The position numbers were made by a program, and so were the translations under genes. From positions 124,001 through 188,000 of the forward strand of contig JAUIHP010000011.1 in assembly GCA_030431975.1 (NCBI GenBank): a stretch of DNA of 64,000 nucleotides. The letters run 5' to 3'. This stretch comes from a bacterium. Lineage in GTDB: Bacteria > Eisenbacteria > RBG-16-71-46 > CAIMUX01. The notes beneath the pieces were generated by a model. The model was not told the DNA's origin. It did not search any database and worked only from the letters and a program-made list of their open reading frames with translations. Below, one piece after another: positions 1,653 to 21,800 of this stretch; the first letter of the stretch is position 1; each line of letters starts with the position of its first letter.

Positions 1653-2663
1653 CTACGGGGCCGATCCCTCTGCCAACCAGACCGTCCCCTCCAGATTCTC
1701 GAAGAGCGTTTTCGCCTGGGCAAATCCGGGATCAATCTCCAGCGCGCTGGAAACGCGGCGAAATGCATCCGCTTCGGAGCCGGACCGGAGGCTGTCCAAG
1801 GCCCGACCGTACTGAACCCAGGCCTCATACTCGTTCGCACCCAGCGCCGCCTCGTCCAGTTCCGTCTTGAGCAGCTTCGCCAGGTCTGAGGCCAACTCCT
1901 CGATCGCCGGCAGGGACTTCGCGGGGCCGCCCCGAAAGACGACCTCGCGGGTACCGAGAATCTCACTCGTCTCCGTCTGCACGATTCGTGACATCACCAC
2001 GATGTCTTTCTCGATCTTCGAGAACTCAGAGAAGACCATCGTCTGAGCGCCCAGGAGATGGCCAACCCGAACCTGCGTGTCCGGGTCCTGCAAGTCCGAG
2101 ATCTCGAACTCCTTGAGGACGTGCCCGATGCGTTCCCGCTCGACGGATCGAAGTGTCGTACTCGAAGCCAGCACCGCCTGCAACTTGCGGGCGAGAAGCA
2201 CATCGATGCCATCCCACTCGCTCCGCTCTTTACCCGGAACACAGTTGACGAAGTCGAAGACGGCGATCGTCGACATCCCCGGCTTCAGCATCAGCTTCGG
2301 TCCAAAGACCTCGAGATACTCCCTCCAGATCAGTCCGTGGAGTGCGCCGTCCAGCTCGTGGTGCGGATCGACGGCGGCAATACGCTCGAGGCAACCCAAC
2401 ACATCGTCCCTCTGCCCAAGTCGATAATGTGCTCTCGCCTGAAAGAGGAGTGCGTCGACTCTGGACTCCACGGAGAGTCCTTCGCTCTCGAGATACTCCT
2501 GACAGACCCGGACGCATTCGGCGGGATCCCGTTGGTAGGCTTCGCGGATGGAGGCATCGAACGCCGTCGAATCTCCCCATGCAAACAGGTGTCCCAGTAC
2601 CGAAAGGCAGACGACGACAACGATTCGGTACACGGGAGTAAGCAAACTTCGGAAGTAAGTCAT
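1653..2663 (-). CDS. TPR / CsgG-FlgO-like envelope protein
   Basis: Predicted exported protein of 336 residues. A hydrophobic stretch near residues 10-30 followed by WGDSTAF looks like a signal peptide. Residues about 35-110 read as TPR-type helical repeats (hydrophobic heptads, LFQARAHYRLGQ). Residues about 130-260 resemble the CsgG/FlgO/HfaB family: an STIAVFDF strand, then SVERERIGHVLKEFEI and HLLGAQTMVFSEF, the usual order of a strand, an ER-type helix and the LLGA strand. A second TPR-like segment follows (EYEAWVQYGRALDSL). The start overlaps the stop of the upstream kinase by ATGA, so it is the last gene of the minus-strand operon. Family members assemble outer-membrane pores or peptidoglycan-associated rings; the role here is inferred only. 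Confidence 0.7.
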   Translation of the reverse strand: MTYFRSLLTPVYRIVVVVCLSVLGHLFAWGDSTAFDASIREAYQRDPAECVRVCQEYLESEGLSVESRVDALLFQARAHYRLGQRDDVLGCLERIAAVDPHHELDGALHGLIWREYLEVFGPKLMLKPGMSTIAVFDFVNCVPGKERSEWDGIDVLLARKLQAVLASSTTLRSVERERIGHVLKEFEISDLQDPDTQVRVGHLLGAQTMVFSEFSKIEKDIVVMSRIVQTETSEILGTREVVFRGGPAKSLPAIEELASDLAKLLKTELDEAALGANEYEAWVQYGRALDSLRSGSEADAFRRVSSALEIDPGFAQAKTLFENLEGTVWLAEGSAP

Positions 2664-4150
2664 AGACGCGAGACCTCAAACTCACACTCGTTGCGTTGGG
2701 ATTGCGAATCGAGTGTTCCAGTGCAATCGCCCGGCGTGAAACGCCAGAACGGGTCGTTGGGTATCAATTGGTAATCGCCGAGGAGCGAACCGGAGATCTC
2801 GATCGTAGGCTCCCACGGCCCGGACCAGACCTTTTGCCCGTCGACGAGAATTCGGATGTTGGGATCGGGCGAGTTCCGTGGATCGCTCGGGTCGAGAAAC
2901 AGCACGCGAAAGACGTGCGGCGCGACTTCCCCCGGACTTGTTCTCGTCTCCTTCGCCGCGACGTCGGAGAGTTCGGTATCTCTTTCTTTGGCCCGCGGCT
3001 TCGAGTCGGTGGCTTCCTGGGGCTCGGTAGCAGAGATGTCGGGACCACCTGTTGATTTCGGGGTGTTTTCACGTCCGGAATCATCTTTCGAAACCGCTAC
3101 GCTGTCCTCGAGTTGAGTTTGCTGGGCCGGATCGAGTTCGGCATCGCCTTGGCCTCGAAGAACGGCAGAGACCAGAACCGCTGCAACGAAGATGCCCACG
3201 GCGACCAACGCAGCAGCCCGCGACCATCTTCGGCCTTGGACCGACGTCATTCCGGGCTCAGAGGTTCCGGGCTTGGAGATCCCGCGCAAAGTTTCCGAAC
3301 CACTCTGCGAACGGAGCACGGCCGACACATCATCGAGCGTAGGTCGTTGCCGTATGTCCGTCGCCAACATCCGCCTCAGTACGGCTTCAATGGGAAGTGG
3401 AACCGTCGTCGCTTCGGAAACCACCAGGTCTTCCCTGCCTGCGATGTTGGGAATGTACGGGCACTCGTTGAAGAGTTCCCAGAGAACGACCCCCAGCGAG
3501 TAAAGGTCGGATGCCTCACTCGGTGGTGCCTGGTTTTCCAGAAGCTCCGGGGCTGAGTAATGCTCCGTTCCGACGAAACCGCCGGCTTGGGTCACTCTCG
3601 AGGAAGCCTCGAGGTCCAATGCGACACCGAAGTCACAAAGCCAGGCTCGTCCGCTCTCTTCGACAAGGACATTCCCCCCTTTTACGTCGCGATGGAGAAT
3701 CCCCCGCTCATGAACGGCTCGAAGTGCCTCCGTGACTTGAGAGGCAACGTTCATCTTCTCGCCGTTGGTACGCACGGACAGGGTGGCCCACTGATCCAAG
3801 GTCAAGCCGTCGATGAAGTCCATGATCAGAAAAGACAGGACCGGCGAGTCGGAGTCCGCAACAACCACGTGGTCGTAAACCCGGGGAATGTTGGAGTGAA
3901 TCTCGCGATTCAGGATCGTTGCTTCCTGTTCGAATCGGGCGAGAGCGGTGTGAGAGTTGGGAATCCCACGTCGAACGACTTTGACGGCGTGCCAACCGAG
4001 AGTCTCGTGGCGAGACCGAAAGACCCAACCCATCCCTCCCGCTCCCACGAACTCCGGCGCGGTGTAGGGGCGTTGCGCAAGGAGTCGTGCCAACTCGCGC
4101 TGGATTGTTTCCCGAGTCTCTGCGGGCGGCACGTCAGAAGGTGGGTTCAC
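2660..4150 (-). CDS. Membrane-anchored Ser/Thr protein kinase (Pkn type)
   Basis: Protein kinase of 496 residues. The Gly-rich loop is VGAGGMGWVF, the ATP lysine lies in HAVKVV, the catalytic loop is HRDVKGGN and the metal site is DFG, so all catalytic residues are present. The kinase fold covers about residues 25-290. A single membrane segment follows (AAALVAVGIFVAAVLVSAVL), then an acidic Ser/Thr-rich linker and a short C-terminal beta-rich domain of about 90 residues outside the membrane (VFRVLFLDP...DGQKVW) that I cannot assign. The start overlaps the barrel gene upstream by ATGA and the stop overlaps the CsgG-like gene downstream. It is probably the phosphorylation input or output of the envelope system encoded by its operon. 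Confidence 0.92.
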   Translation of the reverse strand: MNPPSDVPPAETRETIQRELARLLAQRPYTAPEFVGAGGMGWVFRSRHETLGWHAVKVVRRGIPNSHTALARFEQEATILNREIHSNIPRVYDHVVVADSDSPVLSFLIMDFIDGLTLDQWATLSVRTNGEKMNVASQVTEALRAVHERGILHRDVKGGNVLVEESGRAWLCDFGVALDLEASSRVTQAGGFVGTEHYSAPELLENQAPPSEASDLYSLGVVLWELFNECPYIPNIAGREDLVVSEATTVPLPIEAVLRRMLATDIRQRPTLDDVSAVLRSQSGSETLRGISKPGTSEPGMTSVQGRRWSRAAALVAVGIFVAAVLVSAVLRGQGDAELDPAQQTQLEDSVAVSKDDSGRENTPKSTGGPDISATEPQEATDSKPRAKERDTELSDVAAKETRTSPGEVAPHVFRVLFLDPSDPRNSPDPNIRILVDGQKVWSGPWEPTIEISGSLLGDYQLIPNDPFWRFTPGDCTGTLDSQSQRNECEFEVSRL

Positions 4151-5274
4151 CGAAACCTCTGCTCCAGCGCCAACCGAACTCGATACCCGCTGATGTTCAC
4201 GCGGTCTGCCTCATCGATGTTTGGATTGCCGTCGATCTGGGCATCGAAGAGCCCAAGCCGTAGGTTGATCCGACTATCAGCGGCTACTCGAAATGCAGCG
4301 CCGAGTCGAAGTTCCGTCCGAGAGGCTGCACCGAGGTCCGAAAGGTTTCCATCGTCCCAGCCGGAGTGACGAACGAACTCCACGGAGCCTTCGCTGTCCA
4401 CCCGACGGTGAAGACGCCAACCACCTCCAAGTCCAACTCGAACACGGGGGCCCCGCGTTGCCGTGGAGAGGAGCTCTTCCTCCGCCGACACGCCGTAACG
4501 GCTGGGAACGGAGTAACCGAAACGAAGAAACCCATGAGTCGCCGGCTTCCGTCCGACGACCGCGGTTTCGATTCCCCAGGTTGGATCGACCGAGATGGTC
4601 GTTCCTTCGATGGCTCCATCCGCTCGGTGGCCCCAGGAGAGTTGCGATCTCCATCCCCACGCCGCGCTCGAGTAGTCTACGGCTCCCGTTGTCGACAGCC
4701 GCATTCCGCGTTCCAATTTCGCCCCGCCATCCAGCGGACGAAGATCCGAATGAAGTCCAAACGCCGACCCGACTCCAACCGACCAGCGCGGCGCAGGAGA
4801 GAAGGTGTAGCTGACACCGCCGTTGACCACGGTGCCTGAACCCAGGCTCGGAACGGCCATGTTCAGGAGGTCATCCTGGAGACGCACGGCAAGATCGAAC
4901 TCATCGGCGCGAAGCTCCGTCGACCCTGTCGGAATGTTGGTCGCCAGCCGCAGCATCAAGTTGTGCACCGGACGCCAACTTGCCGTCAATTGAGTATCGG
5001 AGAGCTGGGAAACACTCCGATTGCCTTCAGCCTCCGCCCGGACGAACCCGCCGGTTACGGAGAGCCGTAGTTCAGGTGTGACAGGACTTGTCAGGTGAAC
5101 TCGATGGCTCTGCAGTTCGAGGAACTCATCATCCCACTCGGCTCGTTCCTGTACGAGTTCGTAGGTTGCTGTGGCCGACGGCGCTGCTTCGGCTTTGAGG
5201 AGAGATCCCGACACACCGAGGACGGCGCACCCGAGAAGGAAGCGAAGCAGCCGAAGTATGATTCGGTTATCCAT
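4147..5274 (-). CDS. Outer-membrane beta-barrel protein
   Basis: Predicted outer-membrane barrel of 375 residues. I chose the ATG at 5274 because it opens a clear signal peptide (MDNRIILRLLRFLL... ending KAEAAPSA) and lies 16 bases after the upstream stop; the frame stays open for 170 further codons upstream, but that segment is the shadow of the preceding gene. The mature part alternates polar and hydrophobic residues with many Gly/Arg/Ser turns (for example PTWGIETAVVGRK and RVRVGLGGGWRLHRR) and ends in aromatic-terminated EQRFR, typical of a transmembrane barrel. No specific channel family recognised. It lies between a CsgG-like lipoprotein and a membrane kinase, which suggests an envelope-spanning assembly. 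Confidence 0.75.
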   Translation of the reverse strand: MDNRIILRLLRFLLGCAVLGVSGSLLKAEAAPSATATYELVQERAEWDDEFLELQSHRVHLTSPVTPELRLSVTGGFVRAEAEGNRSVSQLSDTQLTASWRPVHNLMLRLATNIPTGSTELRADEFDLAVRLQDDLLNMAVPSLGSGTVVNGGVSYTFSPAPRWSVGVGSAFGLHSDLRPLDGGAKLERGMRLSTTGAVDYSSAAWGWRSQLSWGHRADGAIEGTTISVDPTWGIETAVVGRKPATHGFLRFGYSVPSRYGVSAEEELLSTATRGPRVRVGLGGGWRLHRRVDSEGSVEFVRHSGWDDGNLSDLGAASRTELRLGAAFRVAADSRINLRLGLFDAQIDGNPNIDEADRVNISGYRVRLALEQRFR

Positions 5275-5290
5275 TAGTTCTGCCCCACTT

Positions 5291-6658
5291 TCATCTCGGC
5301 GGATCGGGCGGCCCAGGAATACGGATCTGAAGATGCCCATCGTCCGGTAGGACGGTCGGATCCTCGACCAGATCGTCGAGCACATCTTCAAGAAGTCCTC
5401 CGGCGGTATCCGATCCCTCTTCCGTCTCATCTGGGTTCGACATTCGATCCGAAGGAAGGATGTGTTCGAAATCGACGGACTGGGCAAGGCCGGGTTCGGC
5501 GTCGCGAGCACTGCTATCCGTGGCCTTCTCCCCTTCGAATGCCTTCGCCAGCTCCGTGGTCGACTCCGGATTTCCCGACACGCGGTCTGCAGAGAGACGC
5601 GCCGCCAGAAACTCGTCGTCGGAGTCGATCGCGCGGAGATAGGCTTCGCGCGCTTCCGAGTATCTCGCCGCTCGTTCGAACTCGAGACCCTGGCCGTAGG
5701 CCAGAAACGCGTTGAGATTGCGAGAACCCGACGGCGCAAGACGAGCCCACTCGCCGGGCGACAGTTCCCGTCCCAAGCCGGCAAGCAGTTCCGAGGTCAG
5801 GTCCTTCTGCACTTCCCAGAACCGATCCCGGGACCCGTTTGCCGCGACGACCACCGGACTCGAACCATCCTGAAAGTTCCATGACATCTCGATACGAATC
5901 TGGTCGTCACCCAGCTGCGTGATCGAGCCGAGCACGAAGGCTTCGCTACGCAAGAGCCGCGCCGGACGCAGAGTAGTCGCCGGGTCGACCAGATGAGCCT
6001 CGGCCATTTTCAACTCGCGGAGGATCGCATCGATGTTCCGGCGTTCGAGCAGAACGAACCCGCCGATCTCCTCCAAGTCCCGGCCCAGTTGGCTTGCAAC
6101 GGCATTGCCGAGACCTTGAAGCTCCGGACTCCGTTCATCGTCCAAGGCGAAGATTGCTACGCTGCCCACGACGGGTGGTGCGGTATCCGTGGAGTCCTCC
6201 AGCGCGACGACCCGCTCGGCCCAGGACTCGCTCTGCGTCCTTTCCAACAGGTTCATCCTCGAACTCATCCGGGAACGTAGAGATGAAAGGGGAGCCGCGT
6301 CCAAGTAGTAGCTGTACGCCTGGATCGCACCGGACCAGTCTTCACGTTCCTCACGCAACAGCCCGAGACGAAACCATCCCTCGGCGAGATCAGGATCGAC
6401 CTCGACGACAGACGTGAGAAGAGATTCGGCTTCGCTCGTCTCGCCTCTCTCGGCAAGGACGCGGGCCAGCCCAACCTTTGACGCGACCGAACCGGCTTCT
6501 GCTTCCGATTGCAGGAGTGGAAGCGCCTCCTCGTATCGTTCTTCTTCCAACAAGGCAAGGCCGGGACTGGAGGTGGAACAGCCCGTCTGCGTGAGCAACG
6601 CGAGGGCTATAGAGGACGCCAGAAGTACGAACTTCCCTCGGAACGCGTCGAGACTCAC
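5291..6658 (-). CDS. TPR lipoprotein with CsgG/FlgO-like domain
   Basis: Predicted outer-membrane lipoprotein of 455 residues. The GTG at 6658 is chosen over longer starts because it is 4 bases after the upstream stop and has a strong GAGGAGG ribosome site 8 bases away. The N-terminus VSLDAFRGKFVLLASS leads to a hydrophobic run ending QTGC, a slightly non-canonical lipobox. Residues about 40-130 are TPR repeats (EERYEEALPLLQSEAEAG, ARVLAERGETSEAESLL). Residues about 160-290 match the CsgG/FlgO pattern (VGSVAIFALDDE, LLERRNIDAILRELKMAEAH, LLRSEAFVLGSITQL). The C-terminus is acidic and disordered-looking with a DD-rich stretch. Together with the CsgG-like protein at 1653-2663 it gives the operon two members of one pore-forming or ring-forming family. 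Confidence 0.75.
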   Translation of the reverse strand: MSLDAFRGKFVLLASSIALALLTQTGCSTSSPGLALLEEERYEEALPLLQSEAEAGSVASKVGLARVLAERGETSEAESLLTSVVEVDPDLAEGWFRLGLLREEREDWSGAIQAYSYYLDAAPLSSLRSRMSSRMNLLERTQSESWAERVVALEDSTDTAPPVVGSVAIFALDDERSPELQGLGNAVASQLGRDLEEIGGFVLLERRNIDAILRELKMAEAHLVDPATTLRPARLLRSEAFVLGSITQLGDDQIRIEMSWNFQDGSSPVVVAANGSRDRFWEVQKDLTSELLAGLGRELSPGEWARLAPSGSRNLNAFLAYGQGLEFERAARYSEAREAYLRAIDSDDEFLAARLSADRVSGNPESTTELAKAFEGEKATDSSARDAEPGLAQSVDFEHILPSDRMSNPDETEEGSDTAGGLLEDVLDDLVEDPTVLPDDGHLQIRIPGPPDPPR

Positions 6659-6662
6659 AGGA

Positions 6663-7442
6663 TCATTCCTCCTCCTCACGTAGACGGAGCTCGACTTCCG
6701 AGACCCCGTAGCCGAGGTCGCACACGGCGTAGTCGGCTCCGCGTACCGTATCAAACTTCGCTCTCGAAACGGTGCCGTCCCTTCTCGTCACACGCACATG
6801 GGTTCGTTGAGCCACGCCGAGATCCCAGAGCAGCAGGGCTGCACCTGCGTCCCCCATTCGGTTCGCGACGGCACGGTCTGCATGGTCTGCATGGTCTGCA
6901 TGGTCTGCATGGTCTGCTTGGTCTGCACGGTCCGCATCGTTGCCCGTTCCAGCGCCGTTGTCGATCGCCATGACGACGACATCGTTCTGCGTCACCCATT
7001 GGCGGACGGATGAGTCGCCATCGCCAACGGCTCCCGCGGTTCCCCCGAAATGGGGCAACAGCCGCAATGAGCCATGGAACAGGCTCGCCTCCACCTCAAG
7101 GCGAAACACACCCGGAATGCTCACCTGCAGTCCAAGCTTCGCAGTACGGTCGGATTCCACGCGCCGGCCCGGGGCGCCGGGGCTTGATGCCTCCATCGTC
7201 GGATTCGCAAACGCGTTCCAACTCCCATCGAAGTCGTCCGCGATTCCATCGATCACATCCACGAAGGCGCGCGCCTCCGGGTCGTGTGCAATCCATGCCG
7301 CCACGGCTTGGCTTTCGGGGTCTGTCGCGACTCCGGCCCGAAACCGCGCCAGCACGTAGTAGTGTTCGGGCTGCAAACTTCTGTGGTCCTTTCTCCCGCG
7401 GCTCGCCAACCTGACTTGGCGCGAGACTGACCGTTCTCGCAA
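6663..7442 (-). CDS. Anti-sigma-like protein with HAD/RAD tripeptide repeat
   Basis: Protein of 259 residues, no membrane segment. The first 55 or so residues after EHYYVLARFRAGVATDPES have the look of the N-terminal domain of FecR-type anti-sigma factors (an L-x-R-[FY]-x-AG motif, then acidic helices ending DFDGSWNAFA). The same pattern occurs in the protein at 11285-11992 (LLRYCAG...NFDDAWTRFA), so the two look paralogous there. The C-terminal half is beta-rich and unassigned. A 9 bp tandem repeat encodes DAD-RAD-QAD-HAD-HAD-HAD-HAD-RA near residues 170-192. The start is a TTG directly after an in-frame TGA; no good ribosome site is visible, so translation may begin slightly downstream. Function as a regulator is inferred from the paralogue's coupling to a sigma factor. 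Confidence 0.6.
   Translation of the reverse strand: MRERSVSRQVRLASRGRKDHRSLQPEHYYVLARFRAGVATDPESQAVAAWIAHDPEARAFVDVIDGIADDFDGSWNAFANPTMEASSPGAPGRRVESDRTAKLGLQVSIPGVFRLEVEASLFHGSLRLLPHFGGTAGAVGDGDSSVRQWVTQNDVVVMAIDNGAGTGNDADRADQADHADHADHADHADRAVANRMGDAGAALLLWDLGVAQRTHVRVTRRDGTVSRAKFDTVRGADYAVCDLGYGVSEVELRLREEEE
6871..6933. repeat. 9 bp tandem repeat, seven units
   Basis: Seven consecutive units of GCATGGTCT (units 2-5 identical; units 1, 6 and 7 have one or two changes) inside the anti-sigma-like gene. Nine bases keep the reading frame, so copy-number change would lengthen or shorten an Ala-Asp-His/Arg stretch without breaking the protein. Confidence 0.95.
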
Positions 7443-7494: not shown

Positions 7495-8946
7495 CTACCC
7501 ATGGGTCGTATCCCAACCGGAGTCCGAAACCGGGTCCGACGCGGCTTGGCTCGCCTCCAGCCCCTGAATCATTCGTCCGGGATCCAGGCCGGCCTCCTCG
7601 AGCGATCGCCGGATCGCGGGGCGGGGTCGACGGAGCAATGCCTGAAGAAGATCCGCCTCCGTCACGACGCGGTTCGGCCTTCGGGAAGCCAGCAGTCGGG
7701 CCTCGACGAACGTGGTCTGATAACCCTGGGTCGTCTTGAGTTCGGCCTTGCTAGGAGACTCCCGAACACCATCACGACCTAGCCGAAGGAGCGCCTTCTC
7801 ATCGGCGAGTTCAACGAGAACGGGGCTACGCATCCGCGCCATCGCCCGCAGGATGTGCAGCGTTTCCCGCTGTCCGCCACCTTCTGCGGCGGCCATCCCA
7901 CTCGCAAGGAGATCGGCCCGCGCAACGATTGGGGAGTAGAGAAGCGCACCGGGAGCAGCGCGACCTGCAGCCCCACGTCGGACAGCGCGAACGTCGACTC
8001 CATGACAGGCGACCGTCTCGACGAAGTGACGAGCGATCTCTTCGGCTCGCACCGGGTCCCGACTCTTGTCTCTGGCAAGTTCGGTCGACTCGAGGATCCG
8101 GATTCTTCCGGCTCGGATCCACTCCCGCAGGGCATCGGCCTCTATGACCTCCTCATCACTGCCGGAAGTCTTGGGAGTATTGAGTATCTTGGGATTCCCG
8201 GGTGTACTGGGAGTCCCGGGTGTACTGGCCTCGGAGTCTGGGGCCGTCCACGCCGCTACCATCGCGTGATCCGGCCGGTCTTCGCAACCGCCACTGAAAA
8301 CCAGGATGGGTGCACCTCCGCTCGACTCATGTAAGGCCGCAAGAAGAAGTGAGAAATCCAGACAGGTCCCGTCCTGTCCCTGTGCGATCTCTGTCGGGGT
8401 CGGAACCCGCTGCGCCGTTGCTCCATTCGAAAGCCGCAGACGGTGTGGAAGTCGGTACCCGGAAGCGAGGATGTCAGCGCATCGCCTGAAGTCCGACAGG
8501 AGATCCGAATGAGGTGCTGCACCGGACCAGAAGCGCCCCAAAGCGGGGTCCGTTGGATCCACGTGACAGGTGATGGACGTCCTGGCTGCGGGATGGTGCG
8601 GCCAGTGATCGCGTGGCACGAGTGCGGTCGTCGCCGGTTCGATTTCCGGCGCGTCCGGTCGCCGAATCTGGCACGGGACCGGGCGGTCGAGGGTCTGAAG
8701 CAAGGCCTCAAACCGGATGCTTTCGTCCGGGGAGCCCAGTTCAAGACTGACTCCCAACGGAGGAACCTCTACCTGAAGGGGAGGTTCATGGCTCTTCGTT
8801 GATCGGACATTCCCGGGCCGGGATGGGTCGCCATCGTCCCGAGCAGACGGAGAGGTCGACTCTTCTTGCGTCAACACTTGCGTCAACGGAGCCCCAAGGC
8901 GATACAGTGACAGGTTGTAGGCTGGTACTACCGAGAAGCGTTGCAC
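7495..8946 (-). CDS. Transglutaminase-like domain protein with Clp-N-like repeats (intact C/H)
   Basis: Numbering is from a GTG at 8946 (483 residues); the frame is open to 9069, and the true start is uncertain because the divergent gene begins at 8975. The central part matches the transglutaminase-like domain found beside DUF4011 in large bacterial helicase and anti-phage proteins: HVDPTDPALGRFW, then QRVPTPTEIAQGQDGTCLDF with the nucleophile Cys195, LLLAALHESSGGAPILVF, and His227 in PDHAMVAAW, followed by the family tail VDVRAVRRG. A Pro/Thr/Ser-rich insert follows the His. The last 130 residues hold one clear and one weak Clp-N-type helical repeat (EADLLQALLRRPRPAIRRSLEEAG). No Walker motifs are present, so it is not a Clp ATPase. 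First gene of the minus operon. It probably hydrolyses or cross-links a peptide substrate bound by the Clp-N repeats; this is inference. Confidence 0.65.
   Translation of the reverse strand: MQRFSVVPAYNLSLYRLGAPLTQVLTQEESTSPSARDDGDPSRPGNVRSTKSHEPPLQVEVPPLGVSLELGSPDESIRFEALLQTLDRPVPCQIRRPDAPEIEPATTALVPRDHWPHHPAARTSITCHVDPTDPALGRFWSGAAPHSDLLSDFRRCADILASGYRLPHRLRLSNGATAQRVPTPTEIAQGQDGTCLDFSLLLAALHESSGGAPILVFSGGCEDRPDHAMVAAWTAPDSEASTPGTPSTPGNPKILNTPKTSGSDEEVIEADALREWIRAGRIRILESTELARDKSRDPVRAEEIARHFVETVACHGVDVRAVRRGAAGRAAPGALLYSPIVARADLLASGMAAAEGGGQRETLHILRAMARMRSPVLVELADEKALLRLGRDGVRESPSKAELKTTQGYQTTFVEARLLASRRPNRVVTEADLLQALLRRPRPAIRRSLEEAGLDPGRMIQGLEASQAASDPVSDSGWDTTHG
8865..8888. repeat. 12 bp direct repeat near the divergent starts
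   Basis: Two adjacent copies of CTTGCGTCAACA/G lie just inside the 5' part of the minus-strand transglutaminase-like gene and about 90-110 bases upstream of the divergent ATG at 8975. On the minus strand each copy carries TTGACG. This could be a regulator-binding site for the divergent pair or simply coding repetition (TQVLTQ). Confidence 0.5.
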
Positions 8947-8974
8947 TGGACCTTGCCCCCGGGGTGCGTTCGAG

Positions 8975-10297
8975 ATGATCGACGGTGAAGCGGACAGACT
9001 TGAATTGTACAGCTTTGCTGCTCTGTGGTCAGGTTGTGAGCCACCGGTCCCGGAGGACGCAGGATCCATCCACGTCGAGTTTCTCGAACCGACGAGGGGC
9101 TTTCCCTACACGCTTTCGTTCGAGTGGACTGACCGCAAATCAAGAACCGACGTAGACGAACCTCGCACCGGAAACCGGCAGCAGAACCCTCTAAGTTTCC
9201 TAATCGGACGGTGGATGCAGTCCCTCACGGAACCCACTCGAGTCCGAGTCTCCGCGGACAGCCGGACACCTTATGTCGTCGAGCTCGGCGCCCCCTATTC
9301 CATGTCCGACTCCGAGACCCAACGAGTTGGCTGGGCTGCACGAGTCGATCCGAATGACATCGGAGTCCGGCGATGCCTCGGCAACCAGAAACGACACGAA
9401 GAGACTCAACAGAACGCGAGTCTGCACACCCTTCTCCGAATGTCGGCGAGTCTCCCAAGTCCCGTACGCCGGCAAGACCCGTCGGACGATTCCACTGTGC
9501 GCCCCCCGTGGCTCGTCCTTGATGCGATTGAAGACGGACGTAGCGCCGGAACAAGGGAGGAGATTGCGCTCATACTCGCTTCGGCGGCGGAGGCACTCGG
9601 TGAGCATCCTTTACTCGTACTGACGAAGACGGGAATGAGCGTGGGCTGCGTCCTCAGGTCTCGTCCTTCTTTTCGTCCGTTGTGGACGGCAGAAGAGGTC
9701 AGGCATTGCGTGGGAGAGGGAAGGTTCGTTCGCATCGAGCAAGCTGCGGGAACTCCATCAACCGAACTGGAGATGGACGGTGTGATCGGGGCCATCGACA
9801 TCAGGGCAGCCCGCCCTGACATTGGGAAAGTGGAACCTCTTCGCCTTTCGCACGATCCTGTCGTGCATCAGGCGATGGTTTGGGCAACGCAACTTGGACG
9901 CCCCAAGCAGCGGCTGGAAACTGCAGACCTTATGTACGGCCTGCTCCGTTCCGACGGATCACTCTTGTCCGACACACTCCTTTCCAGCGGAGTCCCGGAC
10001 TCGTGGATCGAGTTGAAACGAAGTGAACCCGCGGTCGCTCAAACACCTCTCGACAACTTCGACGCCCCGCCATTGCCCATGACCCGTAGCCACGCCGTCT
10101 GCCTGGAGGCCGCGACCAGCTTGTCGCGGGAGGCCGGTCTGCACACCGTACGTGAACAAGACCTGACATGGGCGCTCCTTCAGAGTCGCAGCCGATCCAC
10201 CTGGAGGTTTCTGGAGGAATGGAGAATCTCGTTGGAACTTGTCGAAAAGAAGTTGGCAGAACGGGTTCCTCGTCCCGCGCATACGCGATGGGGATGA
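8975..10297 (+). CDS. Catalytically dead transglutaminase-like paralogue with Clp-N-like repeats
   Basis: Protein of 440 residues and a divergent partner of the gene at 7495-8946, with the same domain order. Matching landmarks are ARVDPNDIGVRRCL (for HVDPTDPALGRFW), AGTREEIALILASAAEALGEHPLLVL (for DGTCLDF and what follows), and GAIDIRAARP (for HGVDVRAVRRG). The catalytic Cys position is Arg194 and the following His region (GMSVGCVL) has no His, so it should be inactive. Two Clp-N-like repeats end the protein (RLETADLMYGLLRSDGSLL; TVREQDLTWALLQSRSRS). It is followed 76 bases later by the sigma factor gene. A non-enzymatic sensor or scaffold role is likely but inferred. The start ATG at 8975 leaves only 28 bases to the assumed start of the divergent gene. 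Confidence 0.65.
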   Translation: MIDGEADRLELYSFAALWSGCEPPVPEDAGSIHVEFLEPTRGFPYTLSFEWTDRKSRTDVDEPRTGNRQQNPLSFLIGRWMQSLTEPTRVRVSADSRTPYVVELGAPYSMSDSETQRVGWAARVDPNDIGVRRCLGNQKRHEETQQNASLHTLLRMSASLPSPVRRQDPSDDSTVRPPWLVLDAIEDGRSAGTREEIALILASAAEALGEHPLLVLTKTGMSVGCVLRSRPSFRPLWTAEEVRHCVGEGRFVRIEQAAGTPSTELEMDGVIGAIDIRAARPDIGKVEPLRLSHDPVVHQAMVWATQLGRPKQRLETADLMYGLLRSDGSLLSDTLLSSGVPDSWIELKRSEPAVAQTPLDNFDAPPLPMTRSHAVCLEAATSLSREAGLHTVREQDLTWALLQSRSRSTWRFLEEWRISLELVEKKLAERVPRPAHTRWG

Positions 10298-10373
10298 CTC
10301 AGCTGATGTCGTATCGTTGAAGGTGGTCGCACTCGATCCTCAAAGGTCGACCCTGATTGGGTTAGACTCAACG

Positions 10374-11288
10374 ATGTCGGAAGGGGCTCGAAGAAGATTG
10401 ACCGAAGGTGAACTGACAGAACTCCTGCTGCGTTCCCGAAACGACGAAACGGGTGATGCTCGAGAACGGGTGATTGCGCAGGTTTTTCCCTGGGGCGTTT
10501 CGCAGGTCGCAAAGATTGCCCGAAAGCACGACTGCGATCTGGACGACGCCGTATCGGTCTTCTCGGAACGACTCCTGTCCGGATTGGACGGTTTCGACCC
10601 GGCTCGCGGCGCCCTCTTCGGACTCGTCTATCGTATCGCCCAAAACTCCGTTCGGGAGTGTTACAAGAAACGCGCACGTGACCGAAAGGTCTTCGTTTTG
10701 GAGTCCCAATCCAGCGCCGATGACGAGGATCGATCGAGTTATCACGAGCGACATCCTTCCAAGGAGAGGGCCGACAAGCCGATCGAGTACTACCAGCACC
10801 AGGCATTCCTGGTCATTCTCGCGATCATCGGTGGTTACCCTCACCAACAGATCGCGTTCGGTCTGACGAGATACCTGGTTTCAAGTCACAACGCCCCGCA
10901 GGCCGTCACCGACGAGTACGGCCCCGGGCTCTTGCCCCAACTGTTGGAAGAAGTGCGCGACGCGATTCACGAGTCCGGTCATGCAGCGAAGGATCTCGCC
11001 GAGTTCGTTGCCGACGTCATCCGCCACAGAATGAAATGCCAGGGAAAGGATCTGTTCGGCAAGGACTACCCTCACCTCGCGACTCGGGAGGTCGACGACA
11101 CCCAGCTCTGTGAGTACTTCGGAAAGACCGGCGGGGCCCGCTCGATTGCCGACTGGAACAGCCGGATACGACAACGCATCGAGAGATGCTGCATCGATCC
11201 GGACGCAGTCATCCAGAAGTCCCGACTTCCCGAAGTGCTGCCTCATCAAGACCGATTGAAGGCAGCTGTGGAGGACATCCGTCCGTGA
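10374..11288 (+). CDS. Sigma-70 region 2 protein, atypical ECF-like sigma factor
   Basis: Protein of 304 residues from the ATG at 10374; the frame is open to 10239 but that part overlaps the upstream gene. Residues about 25-105 match sigma-70 region 2: DLDDAVSVFSERLLSGLDGF followed by FGLVYRIAQNSVRECYKKRARDRKV, the core-binding and -10 recognition helices. I cannot see a normal region 4 helix-turn-helix; instead about 150 residues follow with IGGYPHQQIAFGLTRYL and a helical segment ending in IADWNSRIRQRIERCC, which could be a divergent DNA-binding module. It is longer than usual ECF factors (around 170-200). The stop overlaps the next start by GTGA, so it is translationally coupled to the anti-sigma-like gene. 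It probably directs transcription of one or both arms of this locus. Confidence 0.75.
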   Translation: MSEGARRRLTEGELTELLLRSRNDETGDARERVIAQVFPWGVSQVAKIARKHDCDLDDAVSVFSERLLSGLDGFDPARGALFGLVYRIAQNSVRECYKKRARDRKVFVLESQSSADDEDRSSYHERHPSKERADKPIEYYQHQAFLVILAIIGGYPHQQIAFGLTRYLVSSHNAPQAVTDEYGPGLLPQLLEEVRDAIHESGHAAKDLAEFVADVIRHRMKCQGKDLFGKDYPHLATREVDDTQLCEYFGKTGGARSIADWNSRIRQRIERCCIDPDAVIQKSRLPEVLPHQDRLKAAVEDIRP

Positions 11289-11992
11289 AACCTGCGGAGC
11301 AAATGGAGTGGACGGTCCGCTTACTCCGCTACTGTGCCGGGCAGTCCAGCCCGGACGAAGCACTCGAGGTCTACCGGTCCATTCAGAAGTCCGATGAGCT
11401 TCGTCGTCAGATGATCGCGATCCAGACGATCAGCGAGAACTTCGACGACGCCTGGACCCGGTTCGCTCGAAACGCCGATTCCGAAACCACACCCATTCGC
11501 CTCGGGATCCGCGGCGCCCTCGACGAAGCCCGGAAGGTCGCCATCGCCTTTGCCCGCCCCTTCACGGAGCAGCAGGCAGAAACCTACGGGCCTTCCCTTG
11601 CATTGTCGGGAGCCGGCGTCGCAGGCCCAGACTCCTACGCGTCCATTCGGCGGGAGGAAGCCGAGATCCGTTCGAACGCCATCCAAACCGAAGACCTGCT
11701 TGCGGGTCTCGACTCCATGCTTCCTCTTGTTCAGCGCGTCCCCGATCTCGAGAAAGAGATCTGTTGGGACCTGGAATGGAACGGCAGGAGTGTCGGCGAG
11801 TTCCGCGTCTTCCCGACGGACGGACAGGCGATCGTCCGTGTCCATCAGCCGGGAACCTGGGCCGTACTCCTTCACTCCACGCAAGGGTGGGAATCCCACG
11901 AGCTCGAGACTCGTGACGGAATCGACGGTGTGCTCGCGGAGTTCAAGCTTCCGTCGGGTCCGTTTGACCTGCAGCTGATCGAGTCGGCATAG
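11285..11992 (+). CDS. Anti-sigma-like protein coupled to the sigma factor
   Basis: Protein of 235 residues starting with GTG that overlaps the sigma factor stop (GTGA). The first 60 residues (MEWTVRLLRYCAG...NFDDAWTRFARNA) parallel the N-terminus of the protein at 6663-7442 and resemble FecR-type anti-sigma N-domains; no zinc-binding HxxxCxxC motif is present. The rest is a mixed region (IRREEAEIRSNAIQTEDLLAGLDSMLPL) and a beta-sandwich-like C-terminus (CWDLEWNGRSVGEFRVF...RVHQPGTWAVLL). No membrane segment, so any sensing would be cytoplasmic. Coupling to a sigma gene is the classic arrangement for an anti-sigma factor or sigma cofactor; direct evidence is lacking. Confidence 0.6.
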   Translation: MKPAEQMEWTVRLLRYCAGQSSPDEALEVYRSIQKSDELRRQMIAIQTISENFDDAWTRFARNADSETTPIRLGIRGALDEARKVAIAFARPFTEQQAETYGPSLALSGAGVAGPDSYASIRREEAEIRSNAIQTEDLLAGLDSMLPLVQRVPDLEKEICWDLEWNGRSVGEFRVFPTDGQAIVRVHQPGTWAVLLHSTQGWESHELETRDGIDGVLAEFKLPSGPFDLQLIESA

Positions 11993-12898: not shown

Positions 12899-15800
12899 AT
12901 GCCCCCGAGCCGTGACCCCAACCGAATTCAAACATTCACCGTACGGTTGCTTCTCGCCGCCGTCCTGGTGGTCCTGGGATCCGGGCAGGCCCTGAGCCAA
13001 TCCCTGGAAACGGCCGTCCACGCCACGTCGAACGTCGTGGTGAACGGGACGACGGAGCGGTATGAACTCTCCATCACGAATGAAGGCGCTAACAGCCTGA
13101 CAGATGTGGTTGGGACCGTAGTGATTCCGACAGCCTTTCGCAGTTTCAGCGAACAGGACAACCTTGACTGCCCCGGCAGCGGATGCGACCCGGGCGAGAT
13201 CGGGACTTGGACGATCGGCCCGCTCGGAGCTGGGGAGACGACAACCCTGGCCTTTTCCGCGTCCGGAGCCGCAGAGGCGACCGGTGACTACACCCTGTCC
13301 TTGACCGCGAGCGCTCCGGGCCAGTCCGATAGCCAGACCGACCTGACGTTGGCACTGAGAGAAGAGCACGGACTCGCCACCAAGCTGGTCGCAGATCCGG
13401 GACCCGCTGTCGCAGGATCGGAGTTCCGATACGTCCTCTCCTATTCGAATCGAGGGACGGTCACGGCGGCGAACACAACTCTGACGTTCGATGTCCCTGC
13501 CCAATCGACTTTCGTCAGCGCTTCCGATGGCGGAGTTCACAGCGGTGGTTCCGTATCCTGGGACCTTCAGGCCCTGTCCCCCGAGGTCGGTGGACAGGTC
13601 GAGGTCATCGTCGCGGTCGATGAAAATCCGAGCACCGGCGCCGTACTCGATGGCGTCGCGACGATCGACTCCGCAGGTGGACCCAGCCTCTCCTCGAGTA
13701 CTGCAACCCCGGTGCGTTCCCTTCCGACGGCCCTTCACATGGAGTATGGCTTTGCCCGGAACACCATCGAGCCGGGAGGACGTTTCACCTTCTTCTTTAC
13801 GGCTGCCAATCAGGGAGATGTTCTGCTCACTGACGTGGTCGCCGAGGTCATGCTTCCCTCGCACATCAATACGATCCGGAACATCGTCGGAGAAACGAAC
13901 TTCTCCTGTCCCGGCAGTGCCTGCGAGCAGAACGAGATCGGTGTCTGGACCGTGGGAACCCTCGCACCTGGAGCTTCGACCACGTTGATTGTCGAGGGGT
14001 CACTTCTCAACAACACGCCTGCCGGAGCGATACTTTCTTCCCGACTGTTGGCCAACTCATCAGAAAACGTGCAGGTCATGGCCGGCCAGGACCTGATCGC
14101 CGACAGCACACCGCTTCTGCGACTGCACCTGGCCGGAGACCCCGGCCCGGCGGTCGCTGGACAGGACTTCACCTACCGGATCCACGTCGGAAACATTGGA
14201 GAAACCACACCGACCAATCCGGAGCTTCGGCTTCGACTCCCCCAGGGCGTGTCCTTCATTTCCGACACGGCGGGCGGCTCCCATAGCGACGGTGTTGTGA
14301 CCTGGACCCTTGGGCCAGTGGCCACGGATAGCGGCCGCGAGCTTGAAGTTCTCGTCAGTATCGACGCCGCTCTCGAAGAAGGAGAAGTCCTTCGCGCGAT
14401 CGCCGAACTCGATTCCGGCATCAGCAATGAGTTCGACCTCCAGGCCGCTTACCTGCTTCCCGTCGCTTCCCAGCCCGACCTTCACATCGAGTACACCGTT
14501 GACCGATCCTCCTCGGGCTTGAACTGGAACACCATCTACTCCCTCACCGCCTCCAACCTCGGCGACGTTCAGATCTCCGATGTCGTTGCGCAGTTCGTCG
14601 TCCCACCCTACCTCCAGACCTTCGGAGCCGTGCACATCTTCGGAGAGGGAACCCTGCAGTGCCCCGGCACGAACTGTGAAGATACCGAGCTCGCAACCTG
14701 GACCATCGGCGTACTCGAACCGGGACAGTCACGTACAGTACAGTTCAGAACCTCTCCAACGGGATCGCCGCCGGCCGCAGAACTTCTGCCTTCACCTCTG
14801 CTCGCCTCGTCATCCGAAGGCATTCAGATCAGTGCCGATCGAACTCTCATTTACGACGCCACGCCATTGTTCATCCTGGAAGTCGCCCCGGAAACAGGAC
14901 CCGCCGTCGCGGGCGACGAGTTCCGATACACACTTTCCTACGGCAACCTTGGTGACGCGACTCCTGCGGCCAGCGATCTGACGTTCGCCCTTCCAGCGGC
15001 GACGTCCTTTGTCAGCGCGACCGACGGCGGCACCTTCAATGCCATCGAGAATACGGTTGTCTGGGACCTGGCGCCTCTTCCTCCCGACGCTGGCGGACAG
15101 GTCGAGTTGGTTCTCGTGGTAGACGAAGATGCGGCCGAAGGAGCGACTCTCGAAGCGGTTGCGTCCATCGATCCGGGAGCAGGCAGCGATTACGTACTCT
15201 CATCGACAGCCGTTTCTCACGTCCGCAACATGCCGGCTGACCTCGACATTCAGTACGCCTTCGCGCAGAACTCCGTTGAGCCAGGTGGCCGGTACACGTT
15301 GACGCTGACCGCCGCCAACCACGGAGAGATTCAACTCAGCGACGTCGTGGCCGAGGTTCTGCTGCCCGGAGCTATCAGCACCGTAAGCAGTATCTTCGGG
15401 GAGACCGGATTTTCCTGTCCCGGAAGTGCGTGCGAGCAAAACGAGATCGGCGTCTGGGACATCGGAATTCTCGCGCCCGGTGAGTTTACTTCCATCATCC
15501 TGGAAGGGGCCGTACGAGCCGACGCGGGGCACGCGACCGTGCTCTCCTCCAGGCTCAGCGCATTCTCGTCCGAGAACATCCAGGTCCTTGCCGGTTCAGA
15601 CGTGAGTGTCGACGGCTCTCCGCTTCTACGTTTGCATCTTGCGGGAGACCCCGGTCCGGCCGTCGCGGGCAACGACTATGCCTACCAGATCCACATCGGA
15701 AACATCGGTGAGACCACACCGACGACTCCGGAACTTCGGCTTCGACTTCCAGATGGGGTGACGTTCGTTTCCGACACCGGCGGTGGTTCACATGCGGACG

Positions 15801-18800
15801 GAGTCGTGACCTGGAACCTCGGGTCCATCCCCACAGACAGTGGCCGTGAGATCGAAGTGATTGTCGGCATCGATCCGGCATTCGAAGAGGGTGATCTACT
15901 CCGCGCTATCGCCGAACTCGATTCCAACATCAGCAATGAGTTCGATCTTCAGGCGTCCCACATCATCGCGGTCGCTCCTCGCCCCGATCTCCAGATCGAA
16001 TACACGGTCGACCGCTCCTCTTCCGGCTTGAGTTGGAACACCATCTACTCCGTAACGGCCTCCAACCGGGGTGACGTCCAGCTGACCGACGTTGTCGCGC
16101 AGTTCGTCGTCCCCCGTTATCTCCAGGCCTTCGGACCCGGACAAACCCTTGGCGAAGGGGAACTCGGGTGCGCCGGGAGTAACTGCGAGAACACAGAACT
16201 CGCAACCTGGACCGTTGGCGTGCTCCAGCCGGGACAGACTCGGACGGTGCAGTTCCGCACCCACCCGACCGGCTCTCCTCCGGCGGCCGAGATCCTTTCG
16301 TCCCCGCTCCTGGCATCCTCATCCGAGGGGATTCAGATCCGCGGCGATAGAACTCTCATCTTCGACGCGACTCCCCTCTTCGTCCTCGAGGTCGCGCCGG
16401 AATCGGGACCGGCCGTCGTGGGTGACGAGTTCCGATACGTTCTCACCTACGGGAACCTCGGTGACGTCACGCCGCAGAGCAGCGATCTGACATTCGTCCT
16501 TCCCGAAGCCACCTCCTTCGTCAGCGCGACGGACGGAGGCACATTCGATGCAGCCGAAGGCTCGGTGAGCTGGGATCTCTCCCCGCTGTCACCGGACAGC
16601 GGAGGCCAGGTCGAACTGACCGTTCTCGTCGACAGCGATGCAGACGAGGGCGCCACCCTCGAGGCCGTCGCGTCCATCGATCCGGGATCGGGGAGCGACT
16701 ACGTACTTACATCGACCGCCGTATCCCATGTTCGGGAGACCGCGACCGATTTGGATATTCAGTATGCCTTCGCCCAGAACACCCTGGAACCGGGAGGGCG
16801 CTACACCCTGACCCTGACCGCCGCCAACCACGGCGACGTTCCGCTCAGCGATGTCGTGGCCGAAGTCCTTCTTCCCTCCCAGATCAATACGGTGACCAGC
16901 ATCTTCGGGGAAACCAACTTCTCCTGTCCCGGAAGTGCATGCGAGCGAAACGAGATCGGCATTTGGGACATCGGGACACTCGCGCCGGGCGAGTTCACCT
17001 CGATCATCCTCGAGGGGTCGCTCCGCAACGACGCGACACATGCAGGGACCGTCTCTTCCAGGCTCAGTGCCTTCTCCTCCGAGAATGTGCAAGTCCTGGC
17101 CGGTCAGGACATGAGCGTCGACAGCACGCCTCTTCTTCGGCTCCATCTCGCAGCGGACGCCGGCCCTGCCGTTGCGGGAGAGAACCATGCGTACCAGATT
17201 CACATTGGGAACATCGGCGAGACCACGCCGACGACACCCGAACTTCGACTTCAGCTGCCGCCCGGCGCCGGTTACGTCTCGGACACCGCAGGTGGATCGC
17301 ATGTCGACGGTACCGTGACGTGGAACCTCGGGGCCATCGCCACCGACACCGGACGCGAGATCGAAGTCATCGTGGGAATCGACCCCACGCTCGAAGACGG
17401 TGATCTGCTTCGCGCCACCGCGGAGCTGGACTCCGGAATCAACAGCGAGTTCGACCTCCAGGCTTTCCACCTCCTCTCGGTGGCGCCGCGACCTGACCTG
17501 CACATCGATTACACTATCGATCGCTCTTCGTCGGGCCTGAACGGGAACACCATCTACTCGATCACCGCGTCCAACCAAGGGGACATCCAGCTCACCGACG
17601 TCATCGCGCAGTTCGTCGTTCCGCCATACCTCCAAGCTTTCGGATCCGGTCAAATCTTCGGAGAAGGGGACCTGGGCTGCGCCGGAACCAACTGCGAGAA
17701 CACCGAACTCGCTACCTGGACCGTCGGCGTGCTCGAACCCGGACAGACCCGCACGGTGCAGTTCCGGACTTACCCAACAGGTTCGCCGCCGGCAGCAGAG
17801 ATCCTATCCTCGCCACTTCTTGCCACTTCCTCCGAGGGAATTCAGGTCCGTGCGGACCGTACTCTGATCTTTGACGCCACCCCGCTCTTCGCCCTCGACG
17901 TAGCCCCCGAAACGGGACCGGCCGTCGCCGGAGACGAGTTCCACTACACCGTCTCCTACGGCAACATCGGCGACATCACTCCTCAGGCAAGCAATCTGAC
18001 TTTCGTGCTGCCACCGGCTACGTCTTTTGTCAGTGCGACGGACGGCGGCGAGTTCGACGCTGCCGACGGGTCGGTCACCTGGGACCTCTCACCGCTCTCG
18101 CCCGATGCAGGCGGACAGGTCGAGCTCGTTCTCCTCGTCGACAGCGGCGCATCCGACGGAACGGTCCTCGAAGCCGTGGCGTCCATTGACCCTGGAGTGG
18201 GGAGCGACTACGTACTGACCTCGACCACCGTCTCTCACGTACGAAACACCACGGCGGATCTCGACATCCAGTACGCCTTTGCCCAAAGCGTGCTGGAACC
18301 GGGTGGTCGCTACATGCTGACGCTCACCGCCACCAACCATGGTGACGTACAGCTCAGCGACGTCGTCGCGGAAGTTCTGCTGCCCGCTCACCTCAACACC
18401 GTGACAAACATCGTCGGCGAGACCAGCTTCACGTGTCCCGGAGGTGCGTGCGAGCGGAACGAAATCGGCACCTGGAACATCGGAACGATGGCGCCGGGAG
18501 CGTTCACGTCCGTGGTCCTGGAGGGCGCATTGCGCAACGATGCGACCGACGCCGCAGTCCTCTCCTCGAGGCTGAGCGCCTTCTCTTCTGAGAACGTTCA
18601 GGTCCTGGCCGGTCAGGACATGATTGTCGACGGCACGCCGCTACTCCGTCTCCATCTGGCCGGCGATCCGGGGCCCGCCGTCGCGGGACAGAACTATGCC
18701 TACCAGATCCACATCGGAAACATCGGAACGAGTACACCGACTTCATCCGACCTGCAACTGCGCCTTCCCACGGGGGTCTCCTTCGTCTCGGCGAGCGGCG

Positions 18801-21800
18801 GTGGGACCGAGTCGGGTGGTGTCGTGGCCTGGAACCTTGGCGCTCTGGCGCAAGGAACCGGCGAGTTCTTTGAGGTCGTCACTCAGGTGAGTGGATTGCT
18901 CGACGAAGGATACCTGCTTCGTGCGATCGCAGAACTCGACTCCGGCACCGGCAACGAATTCGAGATCCGTTCGGACTTCGTCACACCGGTCGTGGATTCG
19001 ACTCCGCCTCTGGAAGTGGAGTTGCTTACGGTGCCTCGAAGCGGAATGCCATCACAACAACTGCTTCTTCGCGCAAACGTTCGCAACACGACGAATCTGG
19101 AGCAGGCTGACGTCCACGTCCGCATCGTTCTGCCACCCAACATCGTCTCGTTTCCCGAGGCCGATCCAGGCCACTGTCCCGGCTCGGGTTGCGATCCCAG
19201 TGAGGTCGTGAACTGGACTCTCGCCTCGTTGGGGCCAAACCAAAGTCAAACCCTCGACATGAGTACGAGTTTCCGAAACACCGCACCGCTCGGCGAGATC
19301 CTACGCAGCGTTGCGGTCGCAAGCTCCAGTGCCCAAAAGCCGGCACTGTCGGCAGTCTCGACATTCGTAGGAAGCAAGTCCGTTGCAGTCGGCGCCTGTT
19401 GCCTTCCGGACGGATCCTGCATCCTGACGTCGGCAGATCAGTGTTCCCCCGTCGGGGTGTATCAGGGGGACGACGTCTCGTGCACACCGAATCCGTGCCC
19501 GGCCGAGGCAGAAGGCGCATGCTGCGCGCCGGACGGATCCTGCAGCCTGACCCCGGCCTCACAGTGTCAGGATGACTACCAGGGCGACGATACTACCTGT
19601 GATCCGAACCCGTGCGACCAGCCGACCGGCGCGTGCTGCGCGCCCGACGGCTCCTGCAGTGTCACCACAGCCGCAGAGTGTCTGGACGACTACCGGGGTG
19701 ACGGGACGATCTGTGTTCCGAACCCATGCGAACAGCCGACCGGAGCGTGCTGCGCGTCCGACGGGTCCTGCAGTGTGACCACAGCGGCAGAATGTCCGGA
19801 CGACTACCGGGGCGACGGGACGATCTGTGTTCCGAACCCATGCGAACAGCCGACCGGAGCATGCTGCGCCCCCGACGGCTCCTGCAGTGTCACCACCGCC
19901 GCAGAATGTCAGGACGACTACCGGGGTGACGGGACGATCTGTGTTCCGAACCCGTGCGAACAGCCGACCGGAGCGTGCTGTGCGCCCGACGGCTCCTGCA
20001 GTGTCACCACAGCGGCAGAATGTCAGGACGACTACCAAGGTGACGAAACGGTTTGCGATCCCAATCCCTGCGACCAACCGACCGGCGTCTGTTGTTTTCT
20101 CGACGGCAGCTGCCAGGTTCTCACCGACGCGGCCTGCACGATCGGTGGTGGCACGTTCGATGAAACGCGGACCGCATGCGATCCGAACCCGTGTCTGCAA
20201 CCGGATCCAACGGGGGCCTGCTGCTCGAGCGGAACGGATTGTGTCATCCGAACCGAAGTCGAGTGCACGAACACAGGCGGCAACTACCGTGGCGACGGAG
20301 TCTCCTGCGCGCCGGATCCGTGTCCACCCCTCCCGATCAGCATTCTTCCGACTCCGGGTGCTCCCGTCTCACCGTTCGCCCCACTGATCGTGCTCTTCGA
20401 CGAGTCCGTCACCGGCAACGCAGAGTGGTCCGTCACGGTCGACGGAGCACCGGTATCAGGGGACTCGAAGGTCATCGGAAGCCGGGTCGTGTTCACTCCG
20501 TCCGCTCCCTTTGATCGTTGCGATGTCGTCAGCGCGCAACTGAACGGCGGGATCGGGGACGCCGCCGGAAATCTGGCCGCTCCCGAGTCGTGGACGTTCG
20601 ATGTTGCCTGCGAACCGCAGGACGTGTCTTTCATTCAGCCACCGAGAAGCGGTCGATACACCCTCATGTCTGTACCCGTACTGACAACAGGGAGAGCTTC
20701 GGATCTTCTGTCCAGTTTGGGCGAACAGGGCGACCTGACCTGGCGCGCCTTCGGTTGGACCGGTTCCTCCTACGTCGAAGATCCCGAGGTCGGACCAGGT
20801 GATGCTTTCTGGATCGCTGGAACGGAGGACGTGTTCGACGGATCCGATCTCAGTATCGCAGGCGTCCCCAATGGCGACGCCATGCGAATCGAACTGGAGC
20901 AGGGATGGAACCTCATCGGCGTTCCGAACCCGGGTCAGGCCGCGGACTGGAGTTCCGTCCTCGTCATCGCAGACTCGGGAATCGAGCCGCTGTCCACGAG
21001 CAGCATCGTCGACCAGCCCTGCTTCTACGACGACTCCAGCGACGACTTCGTCAACAACGGCGACTACACGATCGCCGATCGGGTGAGTTCGAATCCGCTT
21101 GGCGGCTATTGGGCCTTCGCGAGAGAGCGGTGCACCCTGCTGTTCTCCGACGACGCCGGCCTCTTGCCGGGAGTCCTCGTTCAGGCAGGCAACGCAAGCT
21201 CCAGTTCGATATCGAGTAGCTTGGTATCCGAGTGGACGGTTCGCTTCCGCGCAACCTCCGGAGTGTGGGGCGACGGTGGGATCTTGATCGGCACGCGCAC
21301 CGACGCTCGTCACGGACTCGACCGCACGGATGTCGCCAAGCCACCCGCATTCCAGTCTGAACTGACGCTTGCAGCTCGCGTGCCGGGAACATCCGACCCG
21401 TTCCTGGTCTCGTACCAACCGCCGCGGGAGTCGGACACCGAATGGACATTGTCCGTCGAGGGAAGCCCGGAGTTCGTCGACCTGCATTGGTCCGAGGTGA
21501 AGCCGATCCCTGAGGGACAACGGCTGTACCTCTTCGACGAAGACGCCCGGCTACTCGCCGAGGTCACGGGCGAAGGCAGCCAGCGCGTCGTCCTTAGAGG
21601 CTCGAGGGAACTCACGCTGCGCGCGACACAAACCGAGTTGGAAACTCCTACGACGACGACACAGTTGCGAATTCTCCCCAACCCGGTTCAGGACGTGGGA
21701 CAGGTTCACCTGCAACTCGAAACGGCCAAGGCGGTCTCCCTCCAGATCGTGGATGTGTCCGGAAGGACGGTCACCAAGGTCCACGAGGGCTTGCTCGACG

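Follow-up and report, generated by a model that had tools for sequence, protein, structure and literature searches.

ProA, which NCBIfam lists as an anti-phage protein (NF058533; PADLOC PDC-S37), is a DUF4011 helicase whose N-terminal ~340 residues consist of an Ig-like and a transglutaminase-like domain, and the same pair of domains was found in two divergently encoded proteins of the DNA analyzed here, a stretch of 64,000 nucleotides that we call the window. Unlike ProA, the two proteins (440 and 483 residues, hereafter the twins) have Clp_N repeats in place of the DUF4011, SF1 helicase and MTES_1575 nuclease domains. Two Clp_N repeats, recognizable in the twins by sequence and fold, are also present in the N-domains of ClpC, ClpA and ClpB and in a stand-alone ClpC2-type Clp_N protein (PDB 8b9o); in contrast to ClpC, ClpA and ClpB, the twins have no AAA+ module, and their repeats are located at the C-terminus, behind the transglutaminase-like domain. 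Some transglutaminase domains of polymorphic toxins are inactive, having lost at least one residue of the Cys, His and Asp triad, and peptide binding has been proposed for them (PMC3482391). One of the twins, which we call the dead twin, resembles these domains in the loss of triad residues; however, the toxin domains form the N-terminal portion of secreted RHS proteins, the passages considered mention no active twin for them, and the RHS architecture is absent from the present locus. Pairs of ECF-type sigma factors and zinc-finger anti-sigma factors have their likeness in the transglutaminase gene cluster, where Sigma70 region 2 (E 9e-10, genome G004) is followed by a zf-HC2 anti-sigma factor (E 3e-8, genome G005). 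The sigma-like proteins of this cluster differ from such pairs in that their C-terminal domain is unusual and Pfam detects no region 4, either in the window or in loci L013, L014, L060 and L068, and the anti-sigma-like genes of the window lack the zinc ligands.

The active twin is encoded on the minus strand at 7495..8946 (483 aa, GTG start at 8946) and comprises an Ig-like domain (about residues 1-112), a transglutaminase-like domain (about 113-335) and two Clp_N repeats (about 336-395 and about 396-484). The dead twin, which has the same three-part architecture, is encoded on the plus strand at 8975..10297 (440 aa, ATG start at 8975) in an intact frame. The minus-strand ORF spans 9069-7495, and a longer ATG start at 9069 is possible; its 41 extra residues would all lie ahead of the first conserved family block, which starts just downstream of GTG 8946, and an AAGG is present upstream of this GTG. 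With the GTG 8946 start, the coordinates, motifs and numbering of the original prediction were correct, with Cys195 in DGTCLDF and His227 in PDHAMVAAW of the minus gene, and with Arg194 (GTREEIA) at the Cys position and no His at the matching place of the plus gene. The divergent start codons are separated by 28 bp (8947..8974), and the promoter of either gene must therefore sit inside the reading frame of the other. A sigma-70-like promoter match for the minus arm, CTGACC-17-TACAAT, was located inside the plus gene (9004..9032, minus strand); it is a consensus match only, found once against 0.0 expected in shuffles. A recent inverted duplication was considered as the origin of the twins and rejected, since no long inverted repeat joins the genes. 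An Rfam search returned a tRNA as its sole match.

Because the twins barely matched each other directly (best BLASTP E 0.008 across 48 residues), their paralogy rests on a shared family profile. The family HMM, built from nine relatives with the window proteins left out, scored the minus protein at 116.9 bits (E 3e-35) and the plus protein at 107.5 bits (E 2e-32), whereas the best score among 400 shuffled sequences and 190 further ORFs of the window was 2.9 bits (E near 1 or worse). These matches are not due to chance, and sequence comparison identifies both twins as genuine, divergent members of one family. When 59 related genomes were searched with each twin separately, the same single genes were found in G001, G004 and G005; therefore, both twins are versions of one gene. 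The landmarks that had been pointed out in the plus protein (VDPNDIGV, ALGEHPLLVL and DIRAAR) were found to fall on conserved family columns (V129, P131, P213, D318, A321 and R323). L058, L057 and L065, which are named copies of the genomes G001, G004 and G046, are Candidatus Eisenbacteria MAGs, which places the host in that class, and more members were found in Fermentibacteria, one 'Deferribacteres' MAG and Chloroflexi. The relatives had one gene per genome, except for a single MAG with two on different contigs, and the gene was catalytically intact in all relatives examined. An AU test allowed the twins to be sisters (p 0.35), on branches too long for a firm placement.

From the N- to the C-terminus, the family architecture is an Ig-like domain, a transglutaminase-like domain and two Clp_N repeats, to which many relatives add an N-terminal FHA domain. 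The FHA domain is common but not universal in the family (Pfam E 1e-11 to 1e-13); it was detected by Pfam in L068, L016 and L165 and by eye in L058, L061 and L062, and it was absent from both window twins and from several relatives. By sequence, the Clp_N repeats were matched through an HMM to ClpC N-domains (E 5e-11), and Pfam alone detected them in some relatives only. The AlphaFold models of the twins were fair to good, with pLDDT values of 77 and 83 and pTM values of 0.76 and 0.84; Foldseek searches with the whole models found the Clp_N fold in each, with only Clp_N structures at the top of the lists and hence no confirmation of the transglutaminase fold. The original prediction had recognized the transglutaminase-like, DUF4011-linked domain of these proteins but had overlooked both C-terminal Clp_N repeats. 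A stand-alone intact Ig+transglutaminase protein of 473 aa, in which no Clp_N was found, is encoded at L056:1468-2889 (contig C131 of G004) with an AAA ATPase gene directly after it.

Pfam alone recognized almost nothing in the window twins, the transglutaminase match being below the cut-off, and the Ig+transglutaminase profile found no credible match among PDB sequences. The evidence for a transglutaminase consists of Pfam matches in a minority of the members (DUF553 'Transglutaminase-like' in 16 of 46 and Transglut_core in 12 of 46) and of a profile-profile alignment in which Cys and His (C195 and H227 in the active twin) paired with the catalytic Cys and His of Transglut_core proteins (E 6e-5), and it points, as had been proposed, to the transglutaminase superfamily. 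The transglutaminase-like residues of the active twin were Q179, C195, D197, H227, W233 and E286, the last lying in a column occupied by E or D in 60 of 61 aligned domains. The plus protein, also a family member, lacked the first five of these residues, so that the claimed active/inactive pair held up: Q179 was replaced by S, C195 by R194, D197 by E196 and W233 by V, and H227 was lost. The catalytic residues of the superfamily were thus found in the active twin and not in the dead twin. Among the 61 aligned Ig+transglutaminase domains, only the plus protein lacked Gln, Cys, Asp, His and Trp together, a comparison in which Cys and Asp, though not Gln, His and Trp, were partly guaranteed because most of the other 60 domains had been gathered with the pattern [TN]C[LI]D. 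Both AlphaFold models shared the same order of elements, in which Cys or Arg opens helix 194-207 and the same strands follow.

The losses in the dead twin were concentrated in the active site. Across 68 conserved transglutaminase columns, the dead twin kept 34 and the active twin 31, and at the six active-site columns (W115, Q179, C195, D197, H227 and W233) the dead twin kept none and the active twin all six; the hypergeometric probabilities were 0.012 and 0.007, respectively, for a set of columns chosen after seeing the data. With the scaffold kept and the catalytic residues lost, a pseudoenzyme retained for its shape would fit better than uniform decay. The plus gene could instead be a duplicate that lost its active site, has no regulatory role and is drifting toward a pseudogene. 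The end branches of both twins measured 3.56 changes per column, about three times the median, so both evolve very fast and the dead copy, with 16-26% identity to its kin, could simply be decaying; moreover, no other dead copy was found in searches of the host's class, the Fermentibacteria group, the phylum of L061 and the class of L062, and this confinement to one genome, without a second dead member or close relative, counts against a pseudoenzyme. Both anti-sigma-like genes of the window lack zinc ligands, so that relaxed selection may extend across the entire locus. However, the 440-codon frame is intact, the scaffold columns are kept as well as in the active twin with only the catalytic ones gone, and the C-terminal Clp_N columns are also kept (in repeat 2, both twins keep 12 of 19). 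We consider such drift somewhat unlikely.

The lead to DUF4011 proved correct, as the Ig+transglutaminase region of the twins corresponds to the domain adjoining DUF4011 on its N-terminal side in anti-phage helicases. The same region opens DUF4011 helicases of ~1900-2300 aa, immediately ahead of DUF4011 (residues 387-560 in L063), and DUF4011, SF1 helicase and MTES_1575 nuclease domains were all present in L063 and L076. NF058533 matched the compact relative L068 over model positions 2-338 (E 7e-41) and the active twin over 184-241 (E 4e-8), and an HMM of 35 helicase N-termini matched the active twin at E 3e-14 and the dead twin at E 8e-5. In the literature collection searched, we found no paper joining DUF4011 with transglutaminase and none on ProA. 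The poorly understood N-terminal domain of the ProA helicase is now connected with a second family, which is compact, has Clp_N repeats and belongs to a kinase/sigma cluster, and this link yields testable ideas on its role. Homologues of the domain also work in ProA in a different setting, which counts against reading the twins through a kinase/sigma circuit. The domain could work here as in ProA, in a defense module whose dead copy acts as a decoy to phage proteins, a role also proposed for inactive enzymes in VMAP ternary systems. Besides the domain homology, this is favored by a survey of conflict systems (eLife 2020, PMC7159879) in which most caspases and trypsins at effector positions were inactive and dominant-negative or peptide-binding roles were suggested; those peptidases belong to a different kind of system and would serve as an analogy only. 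Against it, PADLOC matched neither twin nor one compact relative, no MoxR or vWA gene was identified in the near neighborhood, and the recognized neighbors (sigma, kinase, CsgG and OMP genes) are in keeping with envelope signaling. A defense role is, in our estimate, very unlikely.

The earlier reading of the genes had seen the twin pair correctly but had overlooked its membership of a sigma/anti-sigma/kinase/CsgG cluster. The relatives' gene usually lies among sigma-factor, zinc-finger anti-sigma, Ser/Thr-kinase and CsgG/TPR genes. G004 has a seven-gene run on one strand (sigma, anti-sigma, TPR-CsgG, OMP, kinase, CsgG and transglutaminase), and two Fermentibacteria loci have sigma, anti-sigma and transglutaminase genes with a kinase gene downstream in both. 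All seven gene kinds of the G004 run were found in the window, divided over two divergent arms. On the minus strand, the active twin is followed by a probable degenerate anti-sigma-like gene at 6663..7442, recognized by a weak match (E 0.29), the shared motif xxDFDxxWxxF and its position, with the zinc ligands absent; by a TPR + CsgG-like protein at 5291..6754 (E 2e-38 to the G004 cluster); by an outer-membrane-like protein at 4147..5784 (E 7e-14 to the G004 cluster), the N-terminal part of whose ORF overlaps the TPR + CsgG-like gene and is probably noncoding; by a Ser/Thr protein kinase at 2660..4150 (Pkinase E 5e-36); and by a second TPR/CsgG-like protein at 1653..2663. On the plus strand, the dead twin is followed by a sigma-70-like factor at 10239..11288 (E 2e-20 to the relatives' sigma genes), composed of region 2 and a C-terminal GGYPHQQIAFG...YFGK..SIADW domain, and then by an anti-sigma-like gene at 11186..11992 (E 4e-6). 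The zinc-finger ligands HxxxCxxC, present in the relatives, were lost in both anti-sigma-like copies of the window. As judged from gene content, the transglutaminase gene is doubled, with one copy per arm, and the anti-sigma gene is probably doubled in the same way. In the Chloroflexi-group locus L165:1033-3516, a kinase-like region (degenerate, by eye) is fused ahead of FHA-Ig-transglutaminase-Clp_N, which supports the kinase link.

This division of the cluster would also suit a separation of roles, in which the active copy performs a peptidase step, the dead copy serves the sigma operon through its Clp_N repeats alone, as an adaptor or peptide binder, and the two never meet. Consistent with this, both Clp_N repeats are kept in the dead twin, which lies beside the sigma and anti-sigma genes, and the active twin lies beside the kinase and CsgG genes; however, a dead transglutaminase scaffold would be needless if Clp_N alone mattered, and we regard such a separation as unlikely. 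The explanation that we tentatively prefer, with a probability of about 0.45, is a kinase/sigma circuit that combines an active thiol-peptidase/Clp_N protein with a neighboring pseudoenzyme. It is supported by the family membership of both twins, the catalytic-only loss, the matching models, the Clp_N repeats and the conservation of the cluster, and the weakly recognized anti-sigma partner on the active arm counts against it. The arrangement suggests, without proving it, that the dead copy regulates the live copy or the adjoining gene switch. The allosteric control, substrate mimicry or heterodimer raised in the original prediction may apply to the pair. The ancestor may have been an FHA-guided, Clp_N-bearing thiol peptidase (or binder) in a kinase/sigma signaling relay, perhaps directed at the anti-sigma factor or offering substrates to ClpC/ClpA; the FHA domain of the relatives would read the cluster's kinase, and Clp_N would recruit or mimic Clp substrates. 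After duplication, the active twin, a putative peptidase, would have kept the enzymatic step, and the copy beside the sigma factor, probably in one transcription unit with it, would have become a pseudoenzyme that no longer cuts but binds the shared partner, competing for it, shielding it or acting as a scaffold. A narrower version, a sigma-factor switch in which a transglutaminase-like thiol protease carries a Clp_N adaptor, the pseudoenzyme twin shields the target and both are co-regulated via overlapping divergent promoters, appears improbable. A functional relationship between the twins would make them a protease and pseudo-protease pair through which a bacterium controls transcription.

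Several other features were observed in the window and in the relatives. The sigma-70-like factor of the window has kin at L013:13260-14276, L014:243-1268, L060:6774-7862 and L068:6900-7919, with a conserved C-terminal PHQ ... F ... YFGK ... S-x-ADW pattern, and these proteins may represent an undescribed sigma subfamily. Inside the minus-arm anti-sigma-like gene, a nine-base tandem repeat at 6862-6949 encodes a DHADHADHA stretch. A repetitive surface-type protein of 3004 aa is encoded at 12899-21913; its C-terminal ~80 residues, which match the C-termini of several proteins near the relatives' clusters, are probably a sorting domain. Protein kinases fused to NB-ARC/AAA and TPR repeats were found at 27322-30540 of the window and at L060:10933-14172, beside a Fermentibacteria transglutaminase gene. 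A DUF3857 + Transglut_core protein of a different transglutaminase family is encoded at 46309-48450, and a protein kinase fused to a formylglycine-generating-enzyme-like domain is encoded at 59555-62572.
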